From: an uncultured Lachnospiraceae bacterium
Lineage (GTDB): Bacteria > Bacillota > Clostridia > Lachnospirales > Lachnospiraceae
DNA length: 52,585 nucleotides
Assembly: GCA_944384125.1 (NCBI GenBank)
Contig: CALWSF010000026.1
Span: 1 to 52,585, forward strand
Reading direction: 5' to 3'
Of this stretch, positions 3,868 to 44,134 are shown one piece after another (the first letter of the stretch is position 1; the number at the start of each line of letters is the position of its first letter). A program made the translations under genes and the position numbers. The notes beneath the pieces were generated by a model. It was not told the DNA's origin and made no database searches. It saw only the letters and a list, made by a program, of their open reading frames with translations.

Positions 3868-6468
3868 ATGATATTAGAAAGTAAAATACATGGACCCCAG
3901 GCGGAGCGGAATGTTGTCATACGCAGGAGATTAATTTCCAATATGGATGATGCCAAAATGCGGTTGTTCGTTCTCCATGCACCGGCGGGCTATGGTAAAA
4001 CAATTCTTATAAACTCATATATGCGGCTGGCGGAAACGCCTGGTGTATGGTATCAGCTTGGGAAAGGCGACAACGATGTCACTACTTTTCTGGAGTATCT
4101 GACGGCAGCTGTTCGATGTGTGTTTCCGGATTTTGCGCCGGGGTGCAGTCATAGTGTGCAGGAAGCAGTGTATGCTTTTGTAAAGGCTCTGGAGATGGAA
4201 AAGCCGCAGCATCTTAATATTTTTTTTGACGATTATCAGGAAATATATGCCTCTGAAATTGATGAATTGATGGCATTTTTGATAAATCATGCACCAGAAG
4301 GGATTCGTTTTTTCCTGACTACAAAAGGGAGAATCCCTTCTTTTGCAATGCGTTTTATTTTGCGTGATGAGGCATCGGTATTAACTTCAAAGCAGTTGCC
4401 TTTTACATTGGATGAGACAGGAGAGCTTCTGGGGCAGATATCGGGCAGAATGATAGATCCGGAAACGACAGCACTTGTTTATGATTATACACAGGGGTGG
4501 CCTGCCGGAGTACGTTTTTTGGGTTTATATCTGCGTGAAGAAAAAAATGAGTTAAATCGGGATACAATTGCCAGTGCATGCCGCGAGTATCGGGTTGATG
4601 ATTTTATTATGCATGAGCTGTTTAAACGGCTGCCATATCAGATTCAGAACTATCTGAAGTGTACATCTCCTCTTGATTATATGACAGCAGCGCTGTGCAA
4701 TGCTGTGTTGGGCGTGCATGATATGGGAGGAGTCTTGGATTATCTGGTTCAGGAAGGTATTTTTACACAGAAGATAAAGGGTAAACGTGATACTTACCGC
4801 TATCATCTGCTGTTTAAAAATTTTCTTTTGGAACAGATTTCTCTGGCGGATCAGAAACAGATTTTAGGACGTGCTGCCAGAGTACTTCTTAATACATCTC
4901 AGAAGGAACTGGGAATAGAGTATGCAATCCGTGCCGGAGAATATGAGCTGGCTGAAACTGCGATAGGGCGGTTTGGCAGTCTGTTTTTTGAGGAAGAAAA
5001 ATGGAATTTGCTGGCCAGGTGGATTGATTTTCTTCGAACCAGGGAAGATGAGATTGGAGTATCCAACTGGCTTTTGATAGGAAAGTATGAAATTCTGTGG
5101 AAACAGGAAGAACAGGGCAGAGAGTGTTTTGTAAAAGCATATGAACTGGCATTGCAACAGAGAATTGAACCGGCATTTTATGCGGCAACAGAGCTTTTAT
5201 CGGAATATTTTTTGCGCAGGGAAGAGACGGAGTCTGCAGAATTGACAGTAGAACAGGCAATTGAGGACTGGGGGAAGCCTCATAGCAGAATGTGGTTTCT
5301 TCTTGTCTTTCGAAAGGCTCAGGTTTATCTGATAAATGGAAGGGAACAGGCGGCAAAACGCCAGCTTCTTGATCTGGCAGAGCATACGGAAGCGGGAATG
5401 AGATTCCGATCAAGAGAAGTTCTGGAAATCAAAGAAAGGGCCAAACAGCTTTTTGATATTCTGACGGAAACGGATATGAAGCATCTGGCTCTGTTTTATG
5501 ACGGAGAAAAAACGGAACAGCTTAACCGGCTTGTTGCGGCACTCAGGCTTATGGAAGCTGAGCAATATGAGTTTCTGGAGGGAAGATGCTCAGGGCTTAT
5601 TGAAAAATTGGATTCGTTTTCGGGTACTGTGTGCGGGGAAAGTCTTTCAGCACTTTTGGGATACTGGCTGTGCAGAACGGGAAAATGGAGTGAAGGAAGG
5701 CGCTATCTGATTCGGGGGATGAGCTTTTTATTAAAAGGCAGGTTTGACCGTTTGAATGTCAGCCCGTCAGTTAAAATATCAATGGGGCAGTTTTACAGCT
5801 TGCTGAAAGGCGGTTATCTCGATTTGGAGAGAAGAAGGCCGCTGTTTGCCTGCTGTTTTGGCAATTTTCGGATTTTTGATATTGAAACGGGAGAAAATGT
5901 AAGGTGGAGAACACATAAAGCCCAGGAATGCATTGCATATTTGATACATATGAGAGGAAAAGCAGTTTCCCGTGATGCACTCATAAATATTTTATGGAGT
6001 GGAGACGATGAACCGGATAAATTGATTTTAATGCTGCATAATATTCTGTCAAGTATCCGCAAGAGTCTGGAACCTTTTGGCGGTCGTAATATTTTATGCA
6101 GTCAGAATGGGCAGTACTGGATTGATACGTCATGTATCTGTACGGAATTAAGTTTAATGGATCCCATTATTGAATCCATAAGAACAGGAAACCAGTGGAA
6201 TATTACAAATTATGCCTGGATTATGGAAATTTTTGCAGACAGGGAATATATGCAGGATATTGACAGCAGCTGGTGTGAGGAGAGCAAGTATTATTATCAG
6301 CGCTGTCTTTGTGACGGAATGTATCAGGCGGGGCTGTATTTTATGACGCAGAAAGAATATGACAGGGCGGATCAGATGCTTAAGAAAGCACAGGAATTTT
6401 TTCCATGTGATGAGAAAATTGCACGGATGCTGGAGAAATGTACCGAAAAATCGAAAGGAGACGAATGA
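3868..6468 (+). CDS. STAND-ATPase transcriptional regulator with SARP-type winged helix and BTAD domain
   Basis: 866 residues. The N-terminus resembles MalT/LuxR-family STAND regulators: a conserved opening with R-R-R-L-I, then Walker A A-P-A-G-Y-G-K-T (about residues 38-45) and Walker B F-F-D-D-Y-Q-E (about 117-123). A long alpha-helical, TPR-like middle follows (about 330-640). Instead of a LuxR helix-turn-helix, the C-terminus (about 663-760) is an OmpR/SARP-type winged helix starting F-G-N-F-R-I-F and containing S-R-D-A-L-I-N-I-L-W. It is followed by a BTAD-like helical domain to the end. It has its own promoter, and its stop overlaps the first ATPase gene by 4 bp. It is therefore probably the pathway-specific activator of the CIS operon, responding to a small ligand or protein signal (inference). 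Confidence 0.85.
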   Translation: MILESKIHGPQAERNVVIRRRLISNMDDAKMRLFVLHAPAGYGKTILINSYMRLAETPGVWYQLGKGDNDVTTFLEYLTAAVRCVFPDFAPGCSHSVQEAVYAFVKALEMEKPQHLNIFFDDYQEIYASEIDELMAFLINHAPEGIRFFLTTKGRIPSFAMRFILRDEASVLTSKQLPFTLDETGELLGQISGRMIDPETTALVYDYTQGWPAGVRFLGLYLREEKNELNRDTIASACREYRVDDFIMHELFKRLPYQIQNYLKCTSPLDYMTAALCNAVLGVHDMGGVLDYLVQEGIFTQKIKGKRDTYRYHLLFKNFLLEQISLADQKQILGRAARVLLNTSQKELGIEYAIRAGEYELAETAIGRFGSLFFEEEKWNLLARWIDFLRTREDEIGVSNWLLIGKYEILWKQEEQGRECFVKAYELALQQRIEPAFYAATELLSEYFLRREETESAELTVEQAIEDWGKPHSRMWFLLVFRKAQVYLINGREQAAKRQLLDLAEHTEAGMRFRSREVLEIKERAKQLFDILTETDMKHLALFYDGEKTEQLNRLVAALRLMEAEQYEFLEGRCSGLIEKLDSFSGTVCGESLSALLGYWLCRTGKWSEGRRYLIRGMSFLLKGRFDRLNVSPSVKISMGQFYSLLKGGYLDLERRRPLFACCFGNFRIFDIETGENVRWRTHKAQECIAYLIHMRGKAVSRDALINILWSGDDEPDKLILMLHNILSSIRKSLEPFGGRNILCSQNGQYWIDTSCICTELSLMDPIIESIRTGNQWNITNYAWIMEIFADREYMQDIDSSWCEESKYYYQRCLCDGMYQAGLYFMTQKEYDRADQMLKKAQEFFPCDEKIARMLEKCTEKSKGDE

Positions 6469-8468
6469 AAAATAACGAGGATAGATCAGGATGGCTTCAG
6501 TCAGGTTTTTTGGATCTGGCAGCATATGCAAAGTATTTATTTGAAGAAGGAAGACAGAATGACTGGAATCCGTTTCCGGAACAGTCTTTGGAAGAAATAA
6601 AGAACAGGTGCAGCTTTTCAGTGAATATTTCCGGGGGCCAGGGAAGGGCGGGGGAAGAGTGGGAGCGTCTTTCGCTGCTGAAGGAGCTGTTTGATTTAAA
6701 TGAAGAAGAAATTTATATGTTATATATGGCTGGCCTGACAAAAGCTGATGATGGTTTTTATGCGGCTTATCGGGCTCTGGGGAGCAGGAGCGGAGAGGCA
6801 GAGTGTCATATTTTGGAAAGAGTGTGGGCTTATTGCCATAATAAGGAGCCGAAAAAAGTTTCTGTCCGCTGGAGCTTTCTTCGGCGTTTCTTTTTCCGGA
6901 AGCATACATTGAGTAATGAGCTGATTCTGGAAGACAGGATTGTGCAGTTTTTATTACAGGAGACACCGACAGAAATAACTTTCAACATGTCTTTAATGAA
7001 AGAAGCTTCCGGAAATATGCCTTTTGTGGAGGATGATGTTGCCGGAAAGCTTTTTCAATATCTGCAGGAGGGGAAAAAATCAGAAGAAAAAGAATGTATT
7101 GTCATTTCAGGGCCGGATGGTGTTGGAAAAAGAGAATGTGTACGCCGCGCAGCAAAAGCAGTCTGCAGTTCTGTTATTTTTATTAAAGAGCAGAAACTGC
7201 GGGAAATGCCGGAGGAAGACAGAGATGCTTTGCTACGGGAGGCGGTTTTAAGCCATTTTTGCCTGTGCGTGGAATTGGATTGTGAAGATATTTCAGAAAT
7301 CCGGAGCTTTTGTGAGGATGCTCTCAAACTCACAACAGTTTTGTTTTTTGTCGGGGAAGAGAACCGGGAACTTCTGCTGTCAGTTCCGGCACTTGAAATT
7401 TATATTGGTTTTCCTGATATGGCAAAGAGCAGTAGAATCTGGAAACAGGTACTTTCTGAATATCCGGCGGAACAGGAACTGGATGTGCAGAGCCTTTCAA
7501 ACCAGTACAGACTTTCTTACGGACAGATTCGAAGGATAGCGGAACTGGCATGGAAGCAGGTAAGATATGGGGGAAAGGCACAGCTGTCTCTGATGGATTT
7601 GCAGGAAGCCTGTCACAGGCTTCTGAGAAACGAATTCGGAAATCTGGCTGTTCAGATAAAAAGAGGAGGATCCTGGGATGATTTGATTCTGCCCGAACGT
7701 CAGAAAAGGCGGCTGCGGGAGGTATGTTATCAGCTTAAATACAGACATAAAGTTCTGGAGGAATGGGGGCTGAAAAAGCAGATGCCCTATGGAACAGGAG
7801 TTTCGGTTATTTTTTCGGGACCTCCCGGAACCGGGAAAACGATGGCAGCCGGCATAATGGCGGGAGAGCTGGGGGTGGAGCTCTACAGAGTATGCCTGCC
7901 GGCAGTTGTGAGCAAATATATTGGAGAAACAGAAAAGAATCTGGAACAGATTTTTGAACGGGCGGATAAGAGTCAGGCTGCGCTGTTTTTTGACGAGGCG
8001 GACGTGCTGTTTGGAAGACGAACGGAGGTAAAGGAGGCCAATGACAAATACAGTAATCTGGAAGCGGCTTTTCTTCTTCAGAAAATAGAAGAATTTGAGG
8101 GGCTCACGATTCTTGCTACCAATCTTCTCAAAAATATGGATGAAGCATTCCGCAGAAGAATGAAGCTGATTGTGGAGTTTCCATTTCCCGGTAAGGCTGA
8201 GAGATTTGAAATATGGAAACATTCCATACCATCCGCCATGCCGTCGGAGGAACTGGATTTTAGATTCCTTGCGGAACGGTTTGAACTGTCCGGAAGCGGC
8301 ATAAGAAATGTCGTGTATCAGGCAGCATTTCAGGCGGCAGCTGCCGGACAGCCCATAACTATGGGCATGCTGATGCGGGCAGTGGCGGATGAGTATGAAA
8401 AGAACGGAAAAGTATTATCAAAACAGGAGGCTGGCATTTATGGTATGGATGTGGAGGAGTTCCGATAA
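6465..8468 (+). CDS. AAA+ ATPase of the CIS cluster (Afp15-like), first copy
   Basis: 667 residues from ATG 6465, with AAAGGAGA upstream and an ATGA overlap with the regulator. An N-terminal helical region is followed by a degenerate ATPase domain (Walker-A-like G-P-D-G-V-G-K-R near residue 216). A full AAA+ domain follows, with Walker A G-P-P-G-T-G-K-T (about 452-459), Walker B L-F-F-D-E-A-D (about 507), the A-T-N sensor and an Arg-Arg finger region. This two-domain layout matches the ATPase present in nearly all eCIS clusters (Afp15/Pvc15), which is needed for assembly or cargo handling. A paralogue lies at 36973-39081. The last residues overlap the start of the next gene. Confidence 0.9.
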   Translation: MKNNEDRSGWLQSGFLDLAAYAKYLFEEGRQNDWNPFPEQSLEEIKNRCSFSVNISGGQGRAGEEWERLSLLKELFDLNEEEIYMLYMAGLTKADDGFYAAYRALGSRSGEAECHILERVWAYCHNKEPKKVSVRWSFLRRFFFRKHTLSNELILEDRIVQFLLQETPTEITFNMSLMKEASGNMPFVEDDVAGKLFQYLQEGKKSEEKECIVISGPDGVGKRECVRRAAKAVCSSVIFIKEQKLREMPEEDRDALLREAVLSHFCLCVELDCEDISEIRSFCEDALKLTTVLFFVGEENRELLLSVPALEIYIGFPDMAKSSRIWKQVLSEYPAEQELDVQSLSNQYRLSYGQIRRIAELAWKQVRYGGKAQLSLMDLQEACHRLLRNEFGNLAVQIKRGGSWDDLILPERQKRRLREVCYQLKYRHKVLEEWGLKKQMPYGTGVSVIFSGPPGTGKTMAAGIMAGELGVELYRVCLPAVVSKYIGETEKNLEQIFERADKSQAALFFDEADVLFGRRTEVKEANDKYSNLEAAFLLQKIEEFEGLTILATNLLKNMDEAFRRRMKLIVEFPFPGKAERFEIWKHSIPSAMPSEELDFRFLAERFELSGSGIRNVVYQAAFQAAAAGQPITMGMLMRAVADEYEKNGKVLSKQEAGIYGMDVEEFR

Positions 8469-9189: not shown

Positions 9190-9233
9190 TAAAAAAATAT
9201 CAGGTGCAAAGTCGTAAACTGTCAATTTGTATA

Positions 9234-9262
9234 TAGATTTGTATATAACGATGTTGTATAAT
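9234..9262 (+). promoter_or_regulatory. Possible internal promoter before the sheath gene
   Basis: The 181-bp gap before the sheath gene is AT-rich and contains a perfect TATAAT at 9257-9262. The hexamer 17 bp upstream (TAGATT) is a poor -35 match. A separate promoter for the abundant sheath and tube would make sense, but the evidence is weak. Confidence 0.35.
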
Positions 9263-9370
9263 TTTATATCAGGAGTATCAGGGATAAAATTTACCTGAAA
9301 AAGAAAGCAGGAAGAAAGGAGGAACCAGTTTCCGGCAGACATCTGTCTGAAGCAGGAGACTGGATGAAGC

Positions 9371-11104
9371 ATGGCAGAATATTTATCACCAGGTGTCTAT
9401 GTGGAAGAGTTTGAGTCCGGTTCGAAACCGATGGAGGGTGTGAGTACCAGTACCGCTGGCTTTATCGGCCTGGCTGAGAGAGGACCTGTGGAGGGCGTCC
9501 CCCAGCTTGTCACGAATCCGGCTGATTTCAGACGGAGCTATGGCGGTTATCTGTCGGAAAATGAATTTGGGGAGTACCGCTATCTGGCATATGCGGTAGA
9601 TCAGTTTTTCCTGAATGGCGGTTCACGCTGCTTTATTTCACGTGTGGCGCCCAAAGATGCAAAGTGTTCAGAGGGAAGTGCACCTTCAAAAGAAGCACCG
9701 GTTATAACTTTCTATGCAAAAAACCCGGGATGCTGGGGCGATAATATCCGGATTGTGATAACGCCGGCCAGCAAGGCAAAAACGCAGATTTTGGAAGTGA
9801 TTGAGACTGCGGAAGGCAAGAAGTATCTTGTGAAAAATGGTGCCGGATTCAATCCGGGAGATATTGTGATGTACACAGATCAGACTTCGGTTGTGTACAA
9901 TCAGGTAGTGAAAAATCAGGATAATATCATTTCTTTTAAAGAAGAATTTGAGGAAGGCGTTGTTGATAAAAAGCTGGTGCCGACACAGATCGTTTCCGTA
10001 TGTGAATTCAGTGTGGAAGTAAGCTATGGAGACATCGTTGAGTTTTATGAAAACATGTCCTTTAATATTGAGGCATCCAATTATATCGATAAAAAAATGG
10101 CCAAATCTGAGCTGGTAGAGGCTCATTACACAGGAACGCCCGGTGCGGAAATTGTACCGCCGTTTGTTCAGATTGCAGGAGAGGGAGAGGCGGTTGCTTC
10201 TGTTTCCATGTCCGGCGGAAGCAACGGAAGCGTAACCAGTCTCTCAGCAGCTGACTTTATCGGAGAGGATCGCGGTGCAGGAAAGAGAACAGGAATTCAG
10301 TCTTTCCTGGACAATGATATGGTTTCTCTGATGGCTGTTCCCGGTGTGACAGATCCGAATGTACAGCTTACACTTGTAGCGCATTGTGAGAATCTGGGAA
10401 GCCGTTTTGCTGTTCTTGATATGCCGAAAGATCTGAAGAAGGTAGATGAGTTAATTACACATAGGGATATTTTTGACAGCAACTATGCAGCGCTGTATCA
10501 TCCGTGGCTGACAGTGTTTGATCCTCTTGACAAAAAGAACATTTCAATCCCGCCGTCAGGCTCCATGCTGGGCATTTATGCCAGAAGTGATAACACCAGA
10601 GGTGTACATAAAGCGCCTGCCAATGAAGTAGTAAGAGGCTGTGTCGGGCTGGAATGCCAGTTTAACAAGGGAGAGCAGGATATTCTGAACCCCAAGGGAA
10701 TCAATCTGATTCGTTCATTCCCGGGCCAGGGAATCCGTGTATGGGGAGCCAGAACTGCAACAAGCAACAGCAGCTGGAAGTATGTCAATGTACGCCGTCT
10801 GTTTATATTTATTGAGGAGTCTATCAAGGCAAATACCAACTGGGCGGTATTTGAGCCGAATGATGAAGTTCTCTGGGTTCGGGTTCAGAGAACAATCAGC
10901 GTATTCCTGACTAATCTGTGGAGAAACGGTTCTCTTGCGGGTACATCCCCGGAGGAAGCATTTTTCGTAAATATCGGAAGAAATACCATGAGTCAGGACG
11001 ATATTGACAATGGACGGCTGATCTGCGTGATTGGTGTTGCACCAGTAAAACCGGCAGAGTTTGTTATCTTCCGGATTTCTCAGAAGACTGCGGATGCGGA
11101 ATAG
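9371..11104 (+). CDS. Contractile tail sheath protein
   Basis: 577 residues. The N-terminus S-P-G-V-Y-V-E-E-F is the conserved opening of phage/CIS sheath proteins (Phage_sheath_1). It is followed by the T-A-G-F-I-G-L-A-E-R-G-P pattern and the G-G-S-R-C-F-I-S-R-V strand. The C-terminal domain has V-N-V-R-R-L-F-I-F-I-E and the final strand N-x-G-R-L-I-C-V-I-G-V-A-P-V-K-P-A-E-F-V, which forms the inter-subunit mesh. The middle (about 100-330) is a larger, more variable insertion, as in Afp/PVC sheaths. Only one sheath gene is present, unlike the three in Afp. Polymerised sheath contraction drives the tube outwards. Confidence 0.95.
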   Translation: MAEYLSPGVYVEEFESGSKPMEGVSTSTAGFIGLAERGPVEGVPQLVTNPADFRRSYGGYLSENEFGEYRYLAYAVDQFFLNGGSRCFISRVAPKDAKCSEGSAPSKEAPVITFYAKNPGCWGDNIRIVITPASKAKTQILEVIETAEGKKYLVKNGAGFNPGDIVMYTDQTSVVYNQVVKNQDNIISFKEEFEEGVVDKKLVPTQIVSVCEFSVEVSYGDIVEFYENMSFNIEASNYIDKKMAKSELVEAHYTGTPGAEIVPPFVQIAGEGEAVASVSMSGGSNGSVTSLSAADFIGEDRGAGKRTGIQSFLDNDMVSLMAVPGVTDPNVQLTLVAHCENLGSRFAVLDMPKDLKKVDELITHRDIFDSNYAALYHPWLTVFDPLDKKNISIPPSGSMLGIYARSDNTRGVHKAPANEVVRGCVGLECQFNKGEQDILNPKGINLIRSFPGQGIRVWGARTATSNSSWKYVNVRRLFIFIEESIKANTNWAVFEPNDEVLWVRVQRTISVFLTNLWRNGSLAGTSPEEAFFVNIGRNTMSQDDIDNGRLICVIGVAPVKPAEFVIFRISQKTADAE

Positions 11105-11191
11105 AATAATAAGGCTGTTTTGGCGGCAGATACATTCCTTTTAAAGGGATTCAGCGAATAAAGCGGCATATTGAGGGAAGGAGAAAAAAGC

Positions 11192-11614
11192 ATGTATCCT
11201 AATGCGAAGTTTAGATACAAAGTGGAAATTGACGGTCTGGAGGCAGGCGGCTTTTCAGAGGTTACGGGATTTGATGCAACCATTGAGCCGATTGAATACA
11301 GGGAAGGCGATATGACGGCTGAAACGCCGATGAAGGTTCCGGGACTTAAAAAATACGGAAATATTACTCTGAAGCAGGGAGTTACTGATTCAAGAGTGCT
11401 GTATGACTGGATTACAACGGGAATTAACGGGGAGATTGAGAGAAAAACACTGACGATTACTCTTCTTAATGAGACACAGGCTCCCGCTGCTTCATGGCAG
11501 ATTATTAATGCCTGGCCGACCAAATACACGGCTCCGGATTTTAATGCGACAGCCTCAGAAATTGCAATTGAGACACTTGAAATTGTGCACGAGGGAATGA
11601 CAAGAGTATCCTGA
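11192..11614 (+). CDS. CIS inner tube protein (T4 gp19-like), main tube subunit
   Basis: 140 residues from ATG 11192, with GGAAGGAG 8 nt upstream; the upstream TTG is ignored. The start F-R-Y-K-V-E-I-D-G-L-E-A-G-G-F-S-E-V-T-G is the hallmark of the gp19/Hcp-like tube family in eCIS. It is followed by Y-R-E-G-D and the late strand I-A-I-E-T-L-E-I-V-H-E-G, which closes the beta-barrel. It should form the hexameric-ring tube inside the sheath. A terminator-like hairpin follows the gene, which would favour high expression of sheath and tube over downstream genes. Confidence 0.93.
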   Translation: MYPNAKFRYKVEIDGLEAGGFSEVTGFDATIEPIEYREGDMTAETPMKVPGLKKYGNITLKQGVTDSRVLYDWITTGINGEIERKTLTITLLNETQAPAASWQIINAWPTKYTAPDFNATASEIAIETLEIVHEGMTRVS

Positions 11615-11620
11615 TATGGG

Positions 11621-11655: not shown

Positions 11656-11685
11656 GTCGAAAAATATACGGAAAGGTAGAGAAAA

Positions 11686-18469: not shown

Positions 18470-18470
18470 T

Positions 18471-19235: not shown

Positions 19236-19258
19236 CACGGTTCCGGAAAAGGAAGACA

Positions 19259-27665: not shown

Positions 27666-27668
27666 AAC

Positions 27669-30280: not shown

Positions 30281-30320
30281 TGCGAAAGCAGCGGCAAAGA
30301 TGGACAGTCAGGAAAGGAAG

Positions 30321-34225: not shown

Positions 34226-34238
34226 CGGGAGAATAGCG

Positions 34239-36986
34239 ATGAACAAAAGAGTGAAAAGGGCCTGCGCCTGGATTGCCTGGGCAGCGGTATGTCTGATAAT
34301 TGCTGTAGCGGGCGTTGGTTTTTCAGACCGTATTCGTCTGGAAACAATCATGGCATTTACAGAGCAGGACCGGATTTATTACGGGATAGATTCCGTGAAT
34401 AAAGAATATCGCGTGTTTATGAAGGATCTTGATACAGGAAAAAGTGACTGGCTTTCGCAGCCCTGGACAAATTCAGGAAACAAAGACACCTTTTATGTCA
34501 TGGATCTGGAAGCTTTCGGCCCGGAAGAGGTTTATGTCTGCTATGCGGTTCGTCCGGAAAATAAAGAAAGATCTCTTCGCCTTGAAATAATCCACTATGA
34601 CCTTGTGCATCATCGGGAACAGGAGCGCTATTTTATTCCGCTGAAGGAAACAGAGAATTACTTTGCTTTTTCTCTGTCAGAAAGCGGGGGAGAAAAGGCG
34701 CTTTATGTCATGACTGCCGATAAAGTTACTTCACAGATGGCCCGTGTTTCTGTAAATAAGATAGCCGGAGGAAAGATTTCAGAAGAGACGGGGCAGTATA
34801 TGGTTCATGTGCCCTTTTTCCAGGGGGAAAGAATCGAAGACGGAAGTCTTGTGTATCTGACAAGCGATGGATCGGTATGGCAGGTTTCAGATCCGAATGT
34901 GGAATGCTGTATATACTCCAATCAGGGACTGGAAAATCATAATGTAAATTATTATCTGGGCTCTGAGGGAGTATCCTTCTATAATCTTGACACCAAACGC
35001 AGTTGTCAGATTTCCTATGAAGATCAGGAACTGAAAATGACGGAGGACCAGCTGGGGGATTCCAGAGAAAAGTTCGGAAACATCGTTCAGATGATTTCTA
35101 TGGAAGATGGCGGTTTTGCTGCGACTGTGATGCAGGAAAATTTTCATTGTATTCCGGTGGTGTTGGGCAGTAATGAACGGGTAATTGAAGAGGTCAGCCT
35201 GTCTGCTCTGGGCAGAATAATCCTTGGATTTCAGATTTTTTCATTCGTTTATCTGGCCGGGTTTACGCTTTATGTGTTTTATTACCTGATTCGTATGATG
35301 AATCGCGGTGTATTTCCCACAGCGCTTAAAATCGTGTGTATTGTCTTTCCGATGGCGGGTATCGGCTATTTTATTATTTCCCGTCAGGCGGACAAAGTAT
35401 TTGAGGATCAGCTGTGGCTTCAGGAAGAAAAGAGAATGGAGGCGGTTGTCAGTTCGTATGTGAGCCGAATCGATTTGTCTCTTTATTCAAGCAGTGCAAT
35501 GAATCCAACCTATGCCGATGCGCTGGAAAAAGCCTTTGCGAAAGATTATCCGTGGGAGGAGACTATTGCGGAAGTTGGCGGTAAATCCGATTTTAAAATA
35601 AACAGAAATAGTATTTTATATAATTTTTACAGATATTATGATGGAGAAATGTATCCAATCTCGTATCAGTATCTGTCCTGTGCACCGGTAAGCTACACAG
35701 TTTACGGTCAGGATGCGGAAGCACTGTCAAGATGCGTGTCTGAAAAGCAGGTAGTTTGTATCCATGAGGACACCATTCAGGAAGGAGAAATACTGGCATT
35801 CTATTTCCCGCTTTTTCAGGACGACGAATGTGTGGGGGCAATAAGAGCCATGGTTTCTGCCCAGACGGTTCTTCCGATTGCAAAAATGAAGACATTGATA
35901 ATAAGGAGATCAGTTGCTACTTATCTCGTAGTTATGATCGCGCTCCTGTTTGTAATCTCAACGGTCTCAATTCACTCTATACGGAAGATGGAGAAAGCAG
36001 TACGACAGATGAGAGAGGGAAGAGTCCAGGTAAAGGTGGCACTGAAAGGGCAGGATGAGATGGCGCAGATGCGTCAGATTTTCAACCGGATGTCAAATAA
36101 TATCAGCAGTAATCTGGAAAAAATGGAACATCTGAAGAATACATATGAGCCATTTGTGCCGCGGGCTATGATCCGGCTTCTGGGGAAAGAAGATGTCCGT
36201 TTTGTATATCCCGGGGACCGAAACCGAATACGGGCCGCAGTGGCGACGCTTGGAGTCTGTGATTTTGAAAGAATACAGTCACATGTGGGAACGGAAGAAA
36301 TATTTGAATTTTTATCCCGGTACTTAAAAACGGCTGTTCTGATTGCAGAGCAGAACGGCGGTATCCTTGGTGGTTTTTCTCAGGCAAATATAAAGGTAAT
36401 CTTTCCCGGAGGAGCAAAGAACGGAAGACAGGCGGTATGCAGGATTCTGCAAAGACTTCGGGAGGAGAGGCTGGAGCTCGGCGGCAGTGCTGTAAAATTT
36501 TCAGCCGGAATTGCAGAGGGAGAACTTGTACTGACGGCTGTCGGAACGGGGAGCCGGATGGAGATTGTGACAGACGGTGGATGTCTGGAGGAGTCGGTAT
36601 ATCTTAAAAAAGTTGGAGAATATCTGGGAGCCGGCTGTCTGGTCTCAGAGGGAGCTTTCCTGGATGGAGAAAATCCGGCGGGCAGAGAGTTAAGCCGTCT
36701 CCTGATTTGGAGAAGAGAGGCGGATGGAGCAGATGAAGAATATGAGCCGCCTGTGCTTCGTTTTTATCAGGTATATGCAGATGAAACTTCCGCTAACAGA
36801 GAGAAAAAGGAGAAGACGAAAGAATGGTTTGAGCAGGGAATTCAGCTGTTTGGAAGAAGAAAATGGCGTGAGGCCAGAGAAAATTTTGCGGCGGTACTGA
36901 GAGAGGATATACATGATCAGCCGGCAGGCGTTTATTTTTCACTTTGTGATGAATATGCGGAGGAGATGTCTTATGAATCGGATTGA
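34239..36986 (+). CDS. Membrane receptor with HAMP and degenerate class III cyclase domain, copy 2
   Basis: 915 residues, GGGAGA upstream. Same architecture as its neighbour but with a larger first extracytoplasmic region: TM near 9-28, 327-351, 361-381 and 559-581, then HAMP (about 580-630), then Y-E-P-F-V-P-R-A-M-I-R-L-L-G and a cyclase-like domain (about 640-820). Fold landmarks remain: R-M-E-I-V-T-D and L-G-A-G-C-L-V-S-E. The G-D-x-x-M motif is replaced by G-F-S-Q-A-N, and N-x-x-x-R is absent. A TPR-like repeat ends the protein. The two receptors are likely to pair through HAMP and cyclase dimer faces as a heterodimer (inference). The gene end overlaps the second ATPase gene by 14 bp. Confidence 0.8.
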   Translation: MNKRVKRACAWIAWAAVCLIIAVAGVGFSDRIRLETIMAFTEQDRIYYGIDSVNKEYRVFMKDLDTGKSDWLSQPWTNSGNKDTFYVMDLEAFGPEEVYVCYAVRPENKERSLRLEIIHYDLVHHREQERYFIPLKETENYFAFSLSESGGEKALYVMTADKVTSQMARVSVNKIAGGKISEETGQYMVHVPFFQGERIEDGSLVYLTSDGSVWQVSDPNVECCIYSNQGLENHNVNYYLGSEGVSFYNLDTKRSCQISYEDQELKMTEDQLGDSREKFGNIVQMISMEDGGFAATVMQENFHCIPVVLGSNERVIEEVSLSALGRIILGFQIFSFVYLAGFTLYVFYYLIRMMNRGVFPTALKIVCIVFPMAGIGYFIISRQADKVFEDQLWLQEEKRMEAVVSSYVSRIDLSLYSSSAMNPTYADALEKAFAKDYPWEETIAEVGGKSDFKINRNSILYNFYRYYDGEMYPISYQYLSCAPVSYTVYGQDAEALSRCVSEKQVVCIHEDTIQEGEILAFYFPLFQDDECVGAIRAMVSAQTVLPIAKMKTLIIRRSVATYLVVMIALLFVISTVSIHSIRKMEKAVRQMREGRVQVKVALKGQDEMAQMRQIFNRMSNNISSNLEKMEHLKNTYEPFVPRAMIRLLGKEDVRFVYPGDRNRIRAAVATLGVCDFERIQSHVGTEEIFEFLSRYLKTAVLIAEQNGGILGGFSQANIKVIFPGGAKNGRQAVCRILQRLREERLELGGSAVKFSAGIAEGELVLTAVGTGSRMEIVTDGGCLEESVYLKKVGEYLGAGCLVSEGAFLDGENPAGRELSRLLIWRREADGADEEYEPPVLRFYQVYADETSANREKKEKTKEWFEQGIQLFGRRKWREARENFAAVLREDIHDQPAGVYFSLCDEYAEEMSYESD

Positions 36987-39081
36987 GCTCACAGAAAGCG
37001 GAAATATGAGAATGCCGTATCTTCGGGATGAAGAAATCTGGGAAGATCTGTGTGCGGTTATGCGTTTCCTGGCCACAGCCCTTTCAGAGAGAAAAAGTAT
37101 ACTGGATGAAATGGGAACAGAGGCAAAGGGAGCGCTTCTGGCTCTTCAAATGAGTGTGAAAAGTGAGGTGGAACATGCCTCACAGGTCATTCGGAAGAGA
37201 GCGGCCGGCTCGGCTTTCGGAGGAGTTTCAATTCGGATAACAAAGCTTTTTTCTGCTTTTCAGCTGAATGATTTTGAAAAACTGTGCATCGTTCTGGCAG
37301 TAGCTGCCTCTGTTGATCCCATACTTCAGGAACAGCTGAAAAAAATGGAGAATGAATGGGCAAAAGGATGTCCGACAGCAGGACTTGTATTTTTGATGGA
37401 ACAATTTATAAAAGAGACTTCATTTTCGGAAACTGCCGGTTATATCGGGCGCAGCGGAGATATTCGATTTTGTCTGGAGAATTCGGGATTGCAGCAGGCA
37501 GAGTGGCATGATACGCCGGTTCGCCTGTCACGATCTCTGTCGGCATGGATTATGGGAGGAGATTTTGTTCCTGGAGGAGAAAGAATCAGTCAGCCTCAGA
37601 AACTGCCGCCGCTCCTTTTGTATGAGTCCGTTTTGCAGAGTGCACTCAGTGCAGTTCATAAAAGGCCATGTTCAGATTCTCCGCTTATCTTTTATTTCTA
37701 CGGAGAAAAGGGATCCGGAAAAAAGTTACTGCTGTCGCATCTCGGAAAACAGCTGGGAATGAAACCGCTTTTTTTCTCCTGTCATGCGGTTATGAGAATG
37801 GAAAAAAAAGAGAGAGAGGCATTCTGGGAAGAGCTTGTGCTTGAACAGCGTCTTACGGGGGGATTTTTCTGTATGTGCGATTTGCCTGCAGACAGGGAGG
37901 AGCGGGGAGAGGACACCTTCCTCATCAGAAAATTTCTGGAGAGGCTGGCTGTTCCCGGCACGTTTCTGGCTGTGACCGGCAGCGGGAAGAGGGATCTTCC
38001 CATTCTTTCCGGGACTTCCTGCCTTTCTTTTGCACTTGCACGCCCGTCAGGGCGGAAAAAAGCTTCTGTATGGCAGTATTACCGCGACCGTTTTGATGGA
38101 GACGGTAAAATAGATGTGGAATTCAATGGAAACCGGTACGTAATGACTCCCGGAGAAGTTGAAAATGTGTTCCGTACTGCATCTCTTCTTGCCAGAGCAG
38201 ACGGGCGAACCTGTGCCGGCGAATCTGATGTTCAGGAAGCTGTGCATCAGCTGGGACGGGGAACACTGGGAGAATATGCGGAGCATATTGAAAGTGCATT
38301 TGTCTGGGATGATTTGATAGTGGAGGAGACGGTAAAACGCCGCCTCCGGCATATATGCAGCCAGGTAAGATATCGGAGTACCGTGGGAGATGAGTGGGGA
38401 TTTTTCAGAAAAACGCCATACGGCCGCGGTATCAGCGCTTTATTTTACGGGCCGCCCGGAACAGGGAAGACGATGGCCGCACAGGTTATGGCTGCGGAGC
38501 TGGGGCTTGATCTGTACCGGGTCGATTTATCCAGAATGGTCAGCAAATACGTAGGAGAAACAGAAAAAAACATATCAGCGCTGTTTGAGCGGGCCAGTCA
38601 GATGAATGTGATACTGTTTTTTGATGAAGCAGATTCTCTCTTTACAAAACGTTCAGAGGTAAAAGATGCCAACGATCGCAATGCCAATGCGGAGACGGCT
38701 CATCTTCTGCAAAAGCTGGAGTCGTATGAGGGAATCGTTATTCTGGCAACGAATCTGGCAGAACAGATAGATGATGCGTTCAAGCGGAGAATACGCTTTA
38801 TGATACCGTTTCGTTTTCCGGATGCTGATACCAGGCGCATTCTGTGGAAATCTCTGATTCCTGAGACTGCTCCGGTGGAAGACGGAACGGATCTTGACTT
38901 TTTTGCGGAGCGATTTGAGCTTTCGGGAAGTCAGATTAAAGAGATTATTGTCAATGCAGCATTTATAGCAGTATCGGAAGGAAGGGTACTGGATAATGAA
39001 GCAATCAAGGAATCGCTCGCATTAAACTATGCAAAGTATGGTAAACAGCTGACGCGGGAGGATTTCGGATATTTGAACTAG
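36973..39081 (+). CDS. AAA+ ATPase of the CIS cluster, second copy
   Basis: 702 residues from ATG 36973, set by GGAGGAG; the longer in-frame start has no such site. It has the same architecture as the 667-residue ATPase at 6465: a degenerate first domain (Walker-A-like G-E-K-G-S-G-K-K near 242) and an intact second domain with G-P-P-G-T-G-K-T (about 493), L-F-F-D-E-A-D, A-T-N and R-R. The second domains are strongly alike (e.g. V-S-K-Y-V/I-G-E-T-E-K-N in both) while the N-termini differ, so the partners are probably different. It lies next to the receptors and to the 1523-residue protein, suggesting cargo loading or receptor-linked remodelling. Confidence 0.9.
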
Positions 39082-39102
39082 ATGAGAGAGGGAGGTGCCG
39101 TC

Positions 39103-42100
39103 ATGGCGGGCTATGAGGAAATCAGAAGGCGGGACAGTGCGGTTGATCTGGCAGTTCAGCCGGCATATGAAGGCGGACTGAAAAGCGGTACATTTGATAC
39201 CAGTGCGGAAATGCTTCTTGATGAACAGAAAAATAAACGGGAATTTCTGATGGGAGTCGGCAAAAGATCCCGGACAAACCGGAAGTTTTTCTCTGTAAAC
39301 GGCAGTCCCATATATGGCGCTGCCCGGGAGCAGCTGAGAGCCGGAACGATTCCTCTGTTTGAGGGGGCGGCCCTGAATCTGGAAAATGCAGCGTTAATCG
39401 GAGAGAAGAAGTTCATGAAACCTCCAAAAGCGGAGGGCGTAGGCGGAATGCTTGCTCTGATGCCAAAAGGAAGCAGTGTCGGGATTCTTCTTCCTCTTGA
39501 CAGGTTAAGGCTTCAGGAAGATTTTGTTGAGGGAGAGCTCACACTGAATGATCGCGCCGGTTTTCGCGGACAGGATATTATGTTTACAGGAGAAAAGGTA
39601 GAGATCAGCCGCGAGAAAGTGCGCTTCACAGGTTCAAAACAGATTTTCGGAGATCCGGACAGCGGAGTCAGAGTTCCTCTGCCAGATGAGATGGAGATTG
39701 ATGAGAATGGTTTTCATCCCAGGGAGATTGAACTGGCACTTCAGATGAATTTTTTACCGGGAGAGACACTGGCAGAAAGTGTTCAGGAAACTGATGAGAC
39801 GGGGGCGCCTGCTGCATTGGCCGGAACGCTCGTATTTCCCGGAGGCGGGATTCGCCGGCTTAATGGAAAGATGCCGATCAGACACTATGATCAGGTACAG
39901 ATATTTTCAAGCGGCGAAGGTCTTACGGCATTGGTTCAGTTCGGAGACACTCAGGTTCTTATAGAAGATGTGACAGAGAATCAGGACGGAACGTTCAGGG
40001 GGGAAGAAATGACAATCCCCACCAAAGCGGCCAATGAAATTTTAAACATAATCCGTGGTATGAGTGTACACATTGCCGGAAAAAAGGATATGAAGGAGAG
40101 TACAGTCAGTATAGTACTGAAGGGCCTTACAATCGGAAATGAGGGAATCACATTCGAGTCCATGCGAAATTCCGGGCTGGAGCTGGAATTTGATGATATG
40201 AGCATAGGTCTGGGAAATGATATACGCCTTGGAACAAGCGGGGACTTGCTGGGTAAGGAGGATGAGGATGACAGTTATCTGGACCTCTTAACAACAATTT
40301 ACGATGAATTTTTCGGCTCAGATGAAGAGGATGAGGACAAGAAGGAGGATGAAAATAACTTCAAGATGTCGATCCCTTTCATGGCTGTTCCTATTTTTCC
40401 GGGTGTTCTGTCTCTGGAGGGAGAATTCTCAGCGAAAGCAAGTGTTGGATATGGATTGAATGCACAGCTGGAAAACATAGCAGGACTTATCGGAAAAAAA
40501 GATGCGGGCGGATTTTCAGTTGGACTGGGAGCGTATATTAAGGGAATGGCGCAGGCTGGAGTAGGGGTCGGACTGGTAGCGGGACCTAACTTTTTCCTGA
40601 ATCTGGGAGCTTACCTTAAGGCGCTGATGCGTCTGGGCGGAAATCTGGAGGACGGGAAACTTCTGAATGGAAATGTTAAAATCGATCTTGAAAAAGGAAA
40701 TCGCGGCATGCCTCATGTGAAGGCTGCTGAATTAAATGCAGAGGGCGGTATTGCATTGAAAGCGGCCATAGAGGGCTCTGTCGGGGTAAAAGTGCTCGGA
40801 TGGGAAAAGGAGCTTTATACCTATACATTCGGAGAGTGGGAGCTGGGAGCAATAGAGGCAGCGATAGGTGCAAATTATGAGAGGGGAGGAAAATGGAAGG
40901 CCAGTGCATCCGCCAACTACAGACTCCTGGCAGGCCGGATATCCGGAATGGCAATGTCCAAGGAAGCACTGCGCAAGATGGTGGAGAGGAAAAAGGTAAG
41001 CCAGGATATATATGATGCGAGCAAGAGTTCACTGGAAAACGCAAAAGAACTTCTGCTCATGTACAGCAGGAAAACACAGCCTGTCATGATCGGAACAGAA
41101 AACGGACAGTCCGGGTTTATGGATATGAATGAAGCTGTAAAAGAGGTGGAATTCGTCTTTTATAATGAGCTTATGAAACAGCAGGATGCCATCGAATTTT
41201 ACAGAAGAGGAATTGAAAAATTAAAGAATGATGGGGAGTATCAGAAGGCGGGAACCACGTTTAAGGCCGGTGTGGAGAAGCATGATGCGAGAATCAATCA
41301 GATTCAGACAGATGTCGCACAGGTTATGTCCCTGAACGCCCAAAATGCGTCGGGCAGCCAGGTGCTGGAGGCTTATAAGCTCAGCACCGGAGGCGGAAAA
41401 GGCTTTAAAAAGCATCTGTTAAAACGGGCAGAGAAAGATGCGGTAACAGTAGAAAGGCTTACAGAGTATGAACAGAAAAGAATTGAAGAACTGAGCCGTT
41501 CAGGAAATGCCCGGATCGCGGCGATTCGTGAGTTTGCGCAGAACAATGGAATAGGAGAGACTGACAGGACAAAGGGTGAAATCCTGGCGAAACGGTATCG
41601 GGAACTGGGAGGAAAAATGCTCAGGAAAGCAGAGTTTACACCTCTGTCTGTGCTCAGGGAGTGGGAAGAAAATAGGCAGGCACAGCTTCTTGGGGGAAAC
41701 AAATCATATCAGAAACATAAATCACGTGTTGAGCAGCTGAACAGTTTTCTGGCGCAGAATCCGGCGGGCACAGATAAAATAAACCCGGCTTTTTATGCGT
41801 ATTACGTAAAAGAGCTGGGGGCAGGAGGTTTCAACCGCTCGCTGGCGCAGTTTGCGGGCAAACAGCATATTATGCAGCTTGAGGAACAGAAGAGAAGAGC
41901 TAACGGGGGACTGTCAGAGAAAGAACAGGAACTGGCTGTCTTTGAACAGAAGAGGGAAAGAAAAAGACAACTGGAAGAGAAAAACGCCCGGACAGAAGAG
42001 GAAGAGAAGGAACTGGCTGAAATTAATACAGGGATTGCTCAGCAGCTAGTGCAGCTCAAAAATAATAAAAAGTCGGTATATATGACAGCAACGCGGGAGA

Positions 42101-43674
42101 ACTTTGCGGATGCTCTCCGGGCGGAAAAACGGGCGGCAGTTATCAAAAACAAAATGCGGGAGATGAAAGAAAACAATAAAACTACGGGCGGAGATGATCT
42201 GCGCTCACTGTATTTTTCTGTCCGCGATAACCTGACCCTTGAGGATTGTATTGAATATGAGACCCGTATGGCCGCGGCTCTTACCGGAATAGAAAAAATG
42301 CAGCATGAGGCAAAGAAGAGAGAACTGGAACAGGCTGTTGCTGCGGCGGAAACAATGAAGGGAATGGAGCGTGCCAAATTTATCGGACAGGCTCTGGAAA
42401 AGTATCTGTTCGGCATTGGCGGACAGGGCGGAGAAGGAAGGGCCATGCTGGGAGAAATTCTGAGGAGAGCTGAAAAAGAAGACTTTTCTGTACAGAAATA
42501 TTTTTCTCAGGATGCATTTAAAGCACTCGATACCGATGAGATAAAGGCGCTGGAAGAGAGTGATCTGCCGCTGAGAGATGCGCTCGGAACTTTCGGAGGA
42601 AAAAAGACAAATGCGAGAAAGAGAAAGGGTACAAACCGTGCACTGCTGGAAAAATATATGAAGAGTCTGGGCCCCCGCGAGTACACAGAGGAGGATTTGC
42701 TGAGAAGTTATGAGTATGAGCTGGGACGTGCCGGCCGTATTACGCGCGGAAGTGACAGAACCGTTTCAGAGGGAACCATTTATCTGCGCATGAAACAGAT
42801 GTATGGAGATGACAGTATATCCTATGCAGATATGCTGAAAACCTATGAACAATTTGGACGTAAGGATTCTTACCTTTCTTATTTGCAGGAGAAAGCGCCC
42901 GAGTGGGTAACACCGCAGATGATTCTTGATTATGAGCAGGGAAGAATGGGAGTACTTTCAAAGAAGCATGATGATCGAATCAAGATGCTTCGGGAGGGAG
43001 AACTGCTTCCTCCGGAAGAACAGAGAGAGGTTGCCAGAGAATATGCTCTTGCTTCCGGGTTGTATGAAAAAGAGGGAAGCGATGCATCACTGGCGCTCTC
43101 GCCCGAAGACCTGATACTCATGGAGACGGAAAAAATCGGAGCCAAAACGGCTGCTCACAGAGAGAGGCTGGAAATTCTGGGCGATGCGTCGAAAACGGAG
43201 GAAGAGAGGGTAGCTGCGTATAATGGAAGCCGGTTCAGTGTTTCAAAGGATGCAGTAGTAGCACAGTACATGGAATTGATGGGAACATTGACCGCGGATC
43301 CGCAGGCGATGGCAGATGAGCTGACCTCTTATGAAACGGAGCGGCGTACCCATTATCAGGAGCTTGTGGAAGAATGGGAGAAGCCGGTAAAAGAATGCCA
43401 GGAGTTCGTTGTAAATCTGGTTGAACAGGCCCAGAAATGTTATGAGGTTGTGCAGGGTGCTGAAAAAGCCATACAGAATCCGGAGTCCATATTCGGAGAT
43501 TCGGACAGCGGAGTAAATCAGTATATTGATCAGGTTCTGACGCCTGCCCAGCAGGATCAGGATAAAGTACCTGAGATGTTGAATTCGGCGGATCAGGAAC
43601 AGAAGAAGCAGGAAGAGAATATTGAAAAGGCAGAAAAACTTATTCAGCAGATGAATAAAGATAAAGAAGAATGA
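39103..43674 (+). CDS. Very large CIS-associated protein, candidate cargo or ruler
   Basis: 1523 residues from ATG 39103, following GGGAGG (ATG 39082 is less likely). Residues 1-405 are beta-rich and hydrophilic. An acidic linker (D-E-E-D-E-D-K-K-E-D-E) sits near 405-420. About 422-585 form a Gly/Ala-rich hydrophobic region, with V-P-I-F-P-G-V-L-S-L-E-G and G-V-G-V-G-L-V-A-G-P. Similar regions, as far as I recall, occur in very large eCIS-associated proteins. From about 625 to the end it is long alpha-helix with at least seven spaced Y/W/M-E-x-x-R/K-type motifs (near 784, 850, 1049, 1199, 1273, 1337, 1406). No catalytic motif is recognised. It precedes a chaperone-like gene. Alternatives: injected effector, tape measure, or scaffold. 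Confidence 0.75.
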   Translation: MAGYEEIRRRDSAVDLAVQPAYEGGLKSGTFDTSAEMLLDEQKNKREFLMGVGKRSRTNRKFFSVNGSPIYGAAREQLRAGTIPLFEGAALNLENAALIGEKKFMKPPKAEGVGGMLALMPKGSSVGILLPLDRLRLQEDFVEGELTLNDRAGFRGQDIMFTGEKVEISREKVRFTGSKQIFGDPDSGVRVPLPDEMEIDENGFHPREIELALQMNFLPGETLAESVQETDETGAPAALAGTLVFPGGGIRRLNGKMPIRHYDQVQIFSSGEGLTALVQFGDTQVLIEDVTENQDGTFRGEEMTIPTKAANEILNIIRGMSVHIAGKKDMKESTVSIVLKGLTIGNEGITFESMRNSGLELEFDDMSIGLGNDIRLGTSGDLLGKEDEDDSYLDLLTTIYDEFFGSDEEDEDKKEDENNFKMSIPFMAVPIFPGVLSLEGEFSAKASVGYGLNAQLENIAGLIGKKDAGGFSVGLGAYIKGMAQAGVGVGLVAGPNFFLNLGAYLKALMRLGGNLEDGKLLNGNVKIDLEKGNRGMPHVKAAELNAEGGIALKAAIEGSVGVKVLGWEKELYTYTFGEWELGAIEAAIGANYERGGKWKASASANYRLLAGRISGMAMSKEALRKMVERKKVSQDIYDASKSSLENAKELLLMYSRKTQPVMIGTENGQSGFMDMNEAVKEVEFVFYNELMKQQDAIEFYRRGIEKLKNDGEYQKAGTTFKAGVEKHDARINQIQTDVAQVMSLNAQNASGSQVLEAYKLSTGGGKGFKKHLLKRAEKDAVTVERLTEYEQKRIEELSRSGNARIAAIREFAQNNGIGETDRTKGEILAKRYRELGGKMLRKAEFTPLSVLREWEENRQAQLLGGNKSYQKHKSRVEQLNSFLAQNPAGTDKINPAFYAYYVKELGAGGFNRSLAQFAGKQHIMQLEEQKRRANGGLSEKEQELAVFEQKRERKRQLEEKNARTEEEEKELAEINTGIAQQLVQLKNNKKSVYMTATRENFADALRAEKRAAVIKNKMREMKENNKTTGGDDLRSLYFSVRDNLTLEDCIEYETRMAAALTGIEKMQHEAKKRELEQAVAAAETMKGMERAKFIGQALEKYLFGIGGQGGEGRAMLGEILRRAEKEDFSVQKYFSQDAFKALDTDEIKALEESDLPLRDALGTFGGKKTNARKRKGTNRALLEKYMKSLGPREYTEEDLLRSYEYELGRAGRITRGSDRTVSEGTIYLRMKQMYGDDSISYADMLKTYEQFGRKDSYLSYLQEKAPEWVTPQMILDYEQGRMGVLSKKHDDRIKMLREGELLPPEEQREVAREYALASGLYEKEGSDASLALSPEDLILMETEKIGAKTAAHRERLEILGDASKTEEERVAAYNGSRFSVSKDAVVAQYMELMGTLTADPQAMADELTSYETERRTHYQELVEEWEKPVKECQEFVVNLVEQAQKCYEVVQGAEKAIQNPESIFGDSDSGVNQYIDQVLTPAQQDQDKVPEMLNSADQEQKKQEENIEKAEKLIQQMNKDKEE

Positions 43675-43711
43675 CCGCAGGGTTGGCCCGGGAAGACAGG
43701 AGGAAAATGTA

Positions 43712-44134
43712 ATGATGCTTAGTGAAGGATTCAGGACTTTTGCAAAGGCCCACAGCCTTTCTGTGAAAAGTGAATCGGAGGCAGAGAACGAGTGTCTTTA
43801 TTCGTTTAAAATCAGAGGGGAAAAGGGAAATTATGACAGCTTTGGCCTGTGCATGGAGGAGGAGAGGCTTTTTACGGTGGTAATAGACCTGAACATCCGA
43901 ATCAAAGAACAGGGACGGACAGCGGCAGCGTCCATTCTGACAGAACTTAATTATCCTCTTAAGATGGGAGTTATTCAGATGGATCCGCAGACGGGTGCAC
44001 TTACAGTGCGTGCGTCTCAGTATATATACGGAACTGACTGGGAACAGACAGCCCAGATTGAACGGGTTGTTCTTTTAGCCGGGATGATAGCGGACACTTA
44101 CTGCTATGAAATAATCAAAAGGCTTCCCGAGTGA
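43712..44134 (+). CDS. YbjN-like / secretion-chaperone-like small protein
   Basis: 140 residues after AGGAGGAAAATG. It follows the YbjN/type III secretion chaperone fold order: an N-terminal helix (F-R-T-F-A-K-A-H), strands around L-Y-S-F-K-I-R-G and L-F-T-V-V-I-D-L-N, a helix with A-A-S-I-L-T-E-L-N, M-G-V-I-Q-M-D strands, and a final long helix with V-L-L-A-G-M-I-A-D. No catalytic motif. It is the last gene of the uninterrupted CIS operon, right after the 1523-residue protein; chaperones of this fold usually sit next to their client. Chaperoning that protein is inferred. Confidence 0.65.
   Translation: MMLSEGFRTFAKAHSLSVKSESEAENECLYSFKIRGEKGNYDSFGLCMEEERLFTVVIDLNIRIKEQGRTAAASILTELNYPLKMGVIQMDPQTGALTVRASQYIYGTDWEQTAQIERVVLLAGMIADTYCYEIIKRLPE

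Follow-up and report, generated by a model that had tools for sequence, protein, structure and literature searches.

Membrane-bound contractile injection systems (CIS) have been named, in the accessible parts of the literature cited here, for the type VI secretion system (T6SS) of diderm bacteria, the archaeal T6SS and the thylakoid CIS. In the archaeal T6SS of Halogeometricum borinquense, Cis12 and Cis13 are proposed to lie near the membrane contact and a gene for a protein with six transmembrane segments (TMs) tracks the mode of action (PMC11566945). The thylakoid CIS of Anabaena has a TM in its Cis13, a modified fibre, and truncation of this protein left 9 of 14 particles free (PMC8894136). 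In Streptomyces, firing requires CisA, a protein with one TM and a cytoplasmic N-terminus (PMC12237407). CIS membrane adaptors are therefore known already in the form of CisA, the archaeal Hbor_38620 and Cis13 with a TM. Outside CIS, TM pseudokinases are the hubs of the type VII secretion system (T7SS; YukC/EssB) and of a Gram-positive type IV secretion system (T4SS; TraF) (PMC13037476). Here, we describe a stretch of 52,585 nucleotides of an uncultured Lachnospiraceae bacterium (the window; positions 1-52585 of contig C26 in a 3.4-Mb genome). It carries a CIS cluster, a single co-oriented block on the + strand from 3868 to about 44134, in which genes for a TM pseudokinase, a TM MORN protein and two pseudo-cyclase proteins are embedded. 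This membrane gene set marks a widespread CIS type of Bacillota and is not unique to this genome. With moderate confidence we read the system as a cell-retained CIS of monoderms whose baseplate is docked on a dedicated pseudokinase/MORN/pseudo-cyclase membrane module.

The core of the cluster is that of an extracellular CIS (eCIS): sheath, tube, LysM adaptor, hub, spike, gp25, Cis11, Cis12, Pvc16 cap, AAA+ ATPase and PAAR-like tip are all present. The original prediction, made from the sequence alone, had listed a sheath, two tubes, a LysM adaptor, hub, spike, gp25, two J-type proteins, tail protein I, DUF4255 and a PAAR-like tip, and Pfam and NCBIfam searches confirmed this list. It had also placed no TssJLM in the cluster, in agreement with the lack of any TssJLM-type match among 30 window open reading frames (ORFs) searched against Pfam at E up to 0.1. 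A Cis13-like gene, both AAA+ ATPases, a STAND/SARP-like regulator and a presumed tape measure were absent from that list; the Cis13-like, the two AAA+ and the regulator genes also belong to the system.

The pseudokinase gene (27669..28559, +) encodes a predicted kinase-fold domain (residues 1-216), a TM (residues 245-263) and a short tail, according to a structural model and hydropathy. The fold is assigned mainly from the model because profile matches are weak: Pfam gave two weak Pkinase matches for 33 pseudokinases (best 0.039), and a pseudokinase profile searched against the PDB gave weak kinase matches (best 0.0034). EssB/YukC was not among the fold-search matches listed, which other kinases fill. 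HRD and DFG are both missing from the aligned catalytic region of all 33 sequences, and an active kinase was rejected on this basis. A kinase fold lacking catalytic residues, predicted to be cytoplasmic and followed by one TM, is the layout of EssB/YukC and TraF. The tail after the TM measures 20-47 amino acids (aa) in 34 proteins, and the bias of lysine plus arginine places the kinase domain inside in 31 of these, with 3 ties. The adjacent MORN protein (28556..30280, +; PF02493, 3.9e-20) has a TM at residues 81-99, and its MORN part is predicted from the charge pattern to lie outside the membrane, as in 57 of 63 MORN proteins (6 ties). In 4 of 80 related loci, pseudokinase, TM and MORN repeats form a single chain of 660-700 aa (L055:6504-8579, L056:6441-8543, L058:6463-8562 and L059:6622-8604), which argues that the two proteins act together across the membrane; a soluble domain after the pseudokinase TM is present in these four fusions only. 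A TM pseudokinase-like and a TM MORN protein in the CIS operon had both been predicted beforehand, and both assignments stand.

The two pseudo-cyclase genes lie further downstream (32135-36986). The first (32135..34225, +) encodes a four-TM protein with a shortened pseudo-cyclase and a C-terminal TPR-like tail, as judged from TM prediction and alignments, with sister copies in loci L061, L082 and L084. The second (34239..36986, +) encodes a four-TM receptor with a strand-rich and a mixed second ectodomain, both read from the secondary structure of a model, followed by HAMP, a pseudo-cyclase (residues 655-845) and a TPR-like tail (851-914). In the receptor tree the two group with separate tandem copies in the same three loci, with some branches long, and thus appear to be an old duplication, although forks are weak and long branches meet in this tree. 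The fold of the class III nucleotide cyclase homology domain is present, and none of 87 distinct CIS-locus copies, counted after removal of those with identical ends, keeps both metal-binding aspartates; 3 keep the first alone and 3 the second alone. The degenerate cyclase domains of the original prediction were thereby confirmed, and an active cyclase was rejected. Both aspartates are kept in 5 of 5 ordinary cyclases and, read by eye, in the cyclases of genomes G125 and G514. Among ten paralogues from genomes without a sheath match, 7 keep both, whereas the other 3 carry glutamate at the second site, one of them (G154) with asparagine at the first. The neighbourhoods of four (G249, G193, G207 and G349) were mapped and none is a CIS; the other six were assigned by their sheath-less genome. 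One paralogue group, f45, has the same four-TM layout as the CIS receptors and a similar tail. Large receptors of the same family with kept aspartates also occur outside CIS loci at L215:9903-12722, L216:10893-13682 and L231:9517-12267 and are probably active relatives. The mostly intact paralogues outside CIS and the degenerate copies within offer an evolutionary control for the conversion of an enzyme into a scaffold.

The sensor part of these proteins is less constant. Of 73 pseudo-cyclase ORFs, whose starts were set mechanically, the long form accounts for 39 (38 with four TMs), the medium for 8 and the short for 26; of the short ones, 15 lack a TM at the hydropathy cut-off used. Furthermore, genomes G085 and G104 have no pseudo-cyclase match genome-wide at 1e-10, though CIS, pseudokinase and MORN genes are present. 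The constant piece is the cytoplasmic pseudo-cyclase/TPR part, and the sensor is optional. The system had been proposed to be membrane-docked and signal-fired; because the sensor part is optional, the second half of the proposal is weaker than the first.

The membrane genes are linked to one type of sheath. In a sample of 150 Lachnospiraceae genomes, 16 have a sheath, each from a different genus, and 14 of these carry Cis13-like, pseudokinase and MORN genes with CIS genes, all three on the sheath contig in 12; in G054 and G076 they lie on a different contig, next to baseplate genes. In the remaining two, a contig end cuts the locus (G006) or the sheath gene is the sole CIS gene recognised over 54 kb (G046:C1:3754923-3756605, 54% identity); in the latter, the next ORF weakly matches the model of the window amidase. 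Pseudo-cyclase matches of at least 100 bits, a cut-off picked after the scores had been seen, occur in 12 of 16 sheath-bearing genomes (all except G006, G046, G085 and G104) versus 1 of 134 sheath-less ones (Fisher 1.3e-13). That single genome, G125, is the one with both catalytic aspartates kept, and the neighbours of its gene have no CIS hidden Markov model (HMM) match. Overall, 37 of the 150 genomes match at 1e-10; in 24 of them the score stays at 54-79 bits, and these are presumed to be ordinary cyclases.

A class sample of 341 genomes gave the same picture. A sheath match was found in 20, 8 strong (at least 550 bits) and 12 weaker; in each of the 8 strong ones, a pseudo-cyclase match of 67.6 to 314.6 bits (the lowest in G371) lies 8-22 kb from the sheath gene on its contig, versus none of the 12 weaker-sheath genomes. 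Another 25 class genomes match the pseudo-cyclase, including a CIS locus remnant (G467), the paralogue groups f9 and f45 and ordinary cyclases. The pseudokinase profile also picks ordinary kinases and matched 35 class genomes, with a match on the sheath contig only in G000, G022, G236, G371, G309 and G413; a search with this profile found no match in strong-sheath G483 and G174. Among 98 Paenibacillaceae genomes, a sheath match was found in 17; it reaches at least 846 bits in 8 and at most 541 in 9, and a pseudo-cyclase of at least 327 bits accompanies 8 of 8 of the former versus 0 of 9 of the latter. G583 has no sheath match, yet has such a pseudo-cyclase beside Cis13-like, MORN and PAAR-like genes. 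Two weaker matches in this sample are in G594 and G514, the latter being the ordinary cyclase with intact aspartates mentioned above. The family sample overlaps with the class sample, and the 80 loci include some from the sampled genomes (for example, L072 from G016 and L128 from G106). Since the linkage recurs in the three samples, chance neighbourhood was rejected. Had related CIS loci lacked the membrane genes, this would have spoken against the original prediction; the profile searches found them in almost every locus mapped for this sheath type. That the module is a separate signalling system merely lying beside the CIS is very improbable. The pseudo-cyclase paralogues in genomes without a sheath match would fit such a system, but their mostly kept aspartates differ from those of the CIS copies, the linkage repeats in three partly overlapping samples, and Cis13-like, Pvc16 and PAAR-like genes lie in between the genes of the module.

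A scan for the PAAR-like gene confirmed at least 584 stretches, of which the best 80, favouring close kin, were used. In an HMM search of these, 67 have MORN and 70 the pseudo-cyclase, with 65 having both; the Cis13-like gene was found in 58 and the pseudokinase in 41, and 8 loci have none of the four. The counts are lower bounds because the flanks span at most 10 kb. Module-positive loci come from Lachnospiraceae, Oscillospiraceae, Paenibacillus, Cohnella, Heliobacterium and others. The eight module-less ones belong to Acidobacteria, Longimicrobiales, Nostoc, Chloroflexi, an archaeon, Lutispora and two short Clostridia contigs; four of them are shorter than 7 kb and say little. A sheath search in the genomes of 16 of the 80 loci found one in 15 of 15 with the module and none in Lutispora, which is without it. 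In G371, the order is AAA+, Cis13-like, pseudokinase, four-TM receptor, MORN, TolC-like, coiled-coil, Pvc16, 260-aa protein, PAAR-like and sheath. Exported TolC-like proteins of about 690 aa are encoded at L025:2560-4617, L028:4642-6681 and L092:3267-5345, with OEP matches below the Pfam cut-off; in some monoderm CIS loci such a protein and an N-anchored coiled-coil-like protein adjoin the MORN gene, and together they are a possible trans-wall conduit. A Paenibacillus CIS locus (L106:1-2947) has a protein with MFS-like, HEAT and cyclic-nucleotide-binding parts next to the pseudo-cyclase receptor. Near the CIS in G104, which has no pseudo-cyclase match, and in G149, HAMP-like membrane proteins are encoded (L041:6682-9309 and L032:7562-9739) that resemble, by eye, SpoIIE/PP2C phosphatases in their C-terminal part.

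How the particle might meet the module is suggested by the Cis13-like protein (25932..27665, +), which occupies the fibre position of the cluster. It matches CIS13_fam over residues 9-157 only (5.2e-23; 82 bits versus a cut-off of 370) and has no TM by hydropathy; its gene adjoins the pseudokinase gene in relatives too. A related CIS with a less similar sheath, in G350, offers a contrast. It is the only one mapped of the 12 weaker-sheath class loci and has no MORN, pseudokinase or pseudo-cyclase HMM match in 40 kb. Instead, it encodes three large proteins that match the Cis13-like profile over their first 85-120 residues, and both of the complete ones (873 and 893 aa) have Peptidase_S74 at the C-terminus. 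This domain is a hallmark of fibres. Two proteins of this kind, with a Cis13-like N-terminus and a terminal Peptidase_S74, are encoded at L218:8551-14117 in a Clostridia CIS without the membrane module.

We favour docking because the Cis13-like protein is TM-less and the next gene supplies a TM, and because of the Cis13 precedent in thylakoid and archaeal CIS, the contrast with the fibres of G350, and the known TM-pseudokinase hubs; the linkage to one sheath type, the loss of catalytic residues, the pseudokinase-MORN fusions and the predicted topology also speak for it. The particle would be assembled in the cytoplasm, and its baseplate would dock onto the membrane module via the Cis13-like and Cis12-like proteins at its edge. 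The TM pseudokinase could serve as a scaffold facing the cytoplasm, with the MORN protein as its partner whose repeats would lie on the outer face. The pseudo-cyclase/TPR protein may couple the baseplate with the module, and the four-TM, two-ectodomain sensor, which is fused to the pseudo-cyclase/TPR part in about half of the copies, could gate firing. The docking itself, the partners bound, the gating and a shot through the wall of the producing cell are what we infer from the gene content; of the earlier proposal of an inner-membrane-docked CIS, the tie of the membrane genes to the sheath type is found, and docking is the best reading of it.

Several observations weigh against docking. A phmmer search gave no PDB match for the Cis13-like protein, whose assignment is an N-terminal match below the NCBI cut-off. 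Pseudokinase matches were found by profile search in none of the Paenibacillaceae loci among the 80. The pseudo-cyclase is no universal anchor since 15 of 73 ORFs lack a TM and G085 and G104 have none, and loss of the aspartates is not exclusive to CIS loci, since 1 of the 10 paralogues outside (G154) lost both. The window encodes no trans-wall channel; TolC-like proteins occur in 11 of 80 loci, with OEP matches below the Pfam cut-off. The linkage would also fit a regulatory role.

A cytoplasmic CIS as in Streptomyces is possible but unlikely; its particles would be free, and the module would act as CisA does, recruiting them and triggering contraction under stress for self-killing. The closest solved sheaths in the PDB are 9ezm (3.7e-134) and 8bky (1.3e-110), the latter of which we take to be the Streptomyces CIS, and this agrees with such a system and speaks against docking. 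The pseudokinase also has the predicted topology of CisA, with one TM and a cytoplasmic N-terminus (PMC12237407). In Roseiflexus and Deinococcota, particles of lineage IId were seen free in the cytoplasm, again to the disadvantage of docking, and the authors warn that lineage is a poor predictor of the mode of action (PMC12998442). These unanchored particles and the Cis13 match below its cut-off lower the probability of docking and raise that of a CisA-like role. However, none of the 35 ORFs compared has a CisA-like architecture (no CisA homology search was made). Moreover, the module comprises several membrane proteins, two kinds of which have large outer parts, and some relatives add TolC-like and coiled-coil proteins that are exported. 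None of these has an obvious use in self-killing.

Release of the particles, with the module as an assembly checkpoint or as a sensor controlling production or release, is improbable. In its favour, all core parts are of the eCIS type, and a holin (PF05105, 5.9e-29) and an amidase are encoded at 1387-3318 on the same strand, 0.55 kb upstream of the cluster. These two genes resemble the last part of a lysis cassette from a prophage or tailocin. No homologue of the window holin was found around 15 related sheath genes (flanks were limited and other holin families not tested), and we set the lysis genes at 1813-3318 aside as part of the system; the 80 loci rarely extend upstream of the cluster and give no test of their membership. 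In addition, Pfam, NCBIfam and phrog scans gave no fibre family match in the window, although fibres diversify fast and a 1530-aa orphan matches no family, and the sole fibre-bearing relative mapped, G350, is without the module. If this contrast between module and fibre, with one fibre-bearing locus so far, holds more widely, it would provide a sequence marker for cell-retained versus released CIS.

The remaining genes of the cluster, all on the + strand, follow an order from regulator to candidate cargo. The STAND/SARP-like transcriptional regulator (3868..6468) has a MalT-like N-terminus (PRK04841, 4.6e-53, residues 1-391) and an OmpR-type DNA-binding domain (Trans_reg_C, 2e-4), both below the cut-offs, and has homologues close to the sheath in G076, G106, G054, G016 and G056. 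It is followed by an AAA+ ATPase (6438..8468; PF00004, 3.1e-29), presumably Pvc15-like, the sheath, Cis2 (9371..11104; PF04984, 3e-21; PF17482, 7e-19), and the inner tube (11171..11614; PF06841, 5.2e-46). A tail-assembly-chaperone-like protein with a zinc-ribbon motif (11686..12057; phrog_508, 2.6e-6) has BLAST homologues in 14 of 15 related loci. A second tube protein or tube initiator, Cis1b-like (12275..12700; PF06841, 1e-14), precedes the presumed tape measure of 1312 aa (12731..16669), which matches no family and is named for its place between tube and LysM adaptor. The adaptor is a Cis7-like CIS tube protein (16682..17365; PF19266, 3.3e-34; LysM, 1.8e-4). Then come the baseplate hub (17384..18469; PF24032, 6e-7; PF05954, 9e-6), the spike with a VgrG-like OB domain (18414..19235; PF04717, 9e-18), the gp25 wedge, Cis9 (19232..19675; PF04965, 2.4e-26), and two Cis11-like Baseplate_J proteins (19715..22720; PF04865, 7e-9; and 22734..24794; PF04865, 1.8e-14; PDB 9gtp, 1.3e-24). 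The Cis12-like protein or tail protein I (24802..25935) is called from TIGR02242 (1.2e-25) with a partial CIS12_fam match below the NCBI cut-off (1.5e-40). Downstream of the MORN gene lie the Pvc16/DUF4255 cap protein (30225..30893; PF14065, 5e-24), a conserved 260-aa protein between cap and tip with homologues in relatives (30890..31672) and the PAAR-like tip (31673..32059; DUF4280; PF14107, 1.7e-36). Past the receptors, the second AAA+ ATPase (36913..39081; PF00004, 6.9e-34) is followed by the 1530-aa orphan (39082..43674), which has no family above cut-off and whose homologues in L061 and L084 measure 856 and 862 aa, and by a 140-aa protein (43712..44134) with one homologue, in L092 (E 1e-9). 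Together with two further small genes, one with DUF6985, they fill positions 39082-45799, and our guess is that they are cargo (the orphan), its chaperone (the 140-aa protein) and immunity-like genes.

The original prediction knew of no description of this exact gene set, and we found none in the open-licence literature, with preprints and subscription papers outside the scope. It is not named in the accessible parts of PMC12237407, PMC11566945, PMC12998442, PMC12923769, PMC8213781, PMC8894136 and PMC13037476; the main text of Geller et al., as far as accessible, contains no MORN, HAMP or cyclase, and the fibre catalogue, in its accessible part, put fibre-less loci out of its scope. For a CIS that would act from inside a thick-walled cell, the conserved gene set in gut and soil Bacillota represents a concrete candidate machinery. 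We tentatively suggest, as a broader view that we consider somewhat doubtful, that it is a Gram-positive counterpart of the T6SS: a CIS on a pseudokinase/MORN/pseudo-cyclase complex spanning membrane and wall, with kinase and cyclase families as non-catalytic scaffolds and a TM pseudokinase hub common to three unrelated Gram-positive machines (T7SS, T4SS and CIS). The exported TolC-like and coiled-coil parts would belong to such a complex in some lineages only.

In comparison with the described systems, the likeness is in each case partial. Like the archaeal T6SS, which is membrane-bound without TssJLM and has a conserved membrane gene that tracks the mode of action, the system is of the eCIS type (PMC11566945). 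The putative archaeal anchor, however, is one six-TM protein, Hbor_38620, and docking was observed there, whereas here it is inferred from genes and the candidates are pseudokinase, MORN and pseudo-cyclase proteins in Bacillota (PMC11566945); TM prediction gave no six-TM architecture of this kind in 35 ORFs (architecture, not homology, was compared). With the Streptomyces CIS it shares a monoderm host and a predicted one-TM protein with a cytoplasmic N-terminus, here the pseudokinase (PMC12237407), but it has several module proteins in place of the CisA architecture. The thylakoid CIS has Cis13 and Cis12 at the edge of the baseplate, as proposed here for the Cis13-like and Cis12-like proteins, yet its Cis13 carries its own TM (PMC8894136), while here the following gene, that of the pseudokinase, supplies it. 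The CIS of G350 shares a homologous sheath, Pvc16, AAA+, baseplate and the Cis13-like N-terminal region and differs in having the three large proteins instead of the module. Finally, EssB/YukC and TraF likewise combine a cytoplasmic pseudokinase with one TM in a Gram-positive secretion locus but own a second soluble domain, whereas pseudokinases of the window type end in the short tail unless fused to MORN (PMC13037476).

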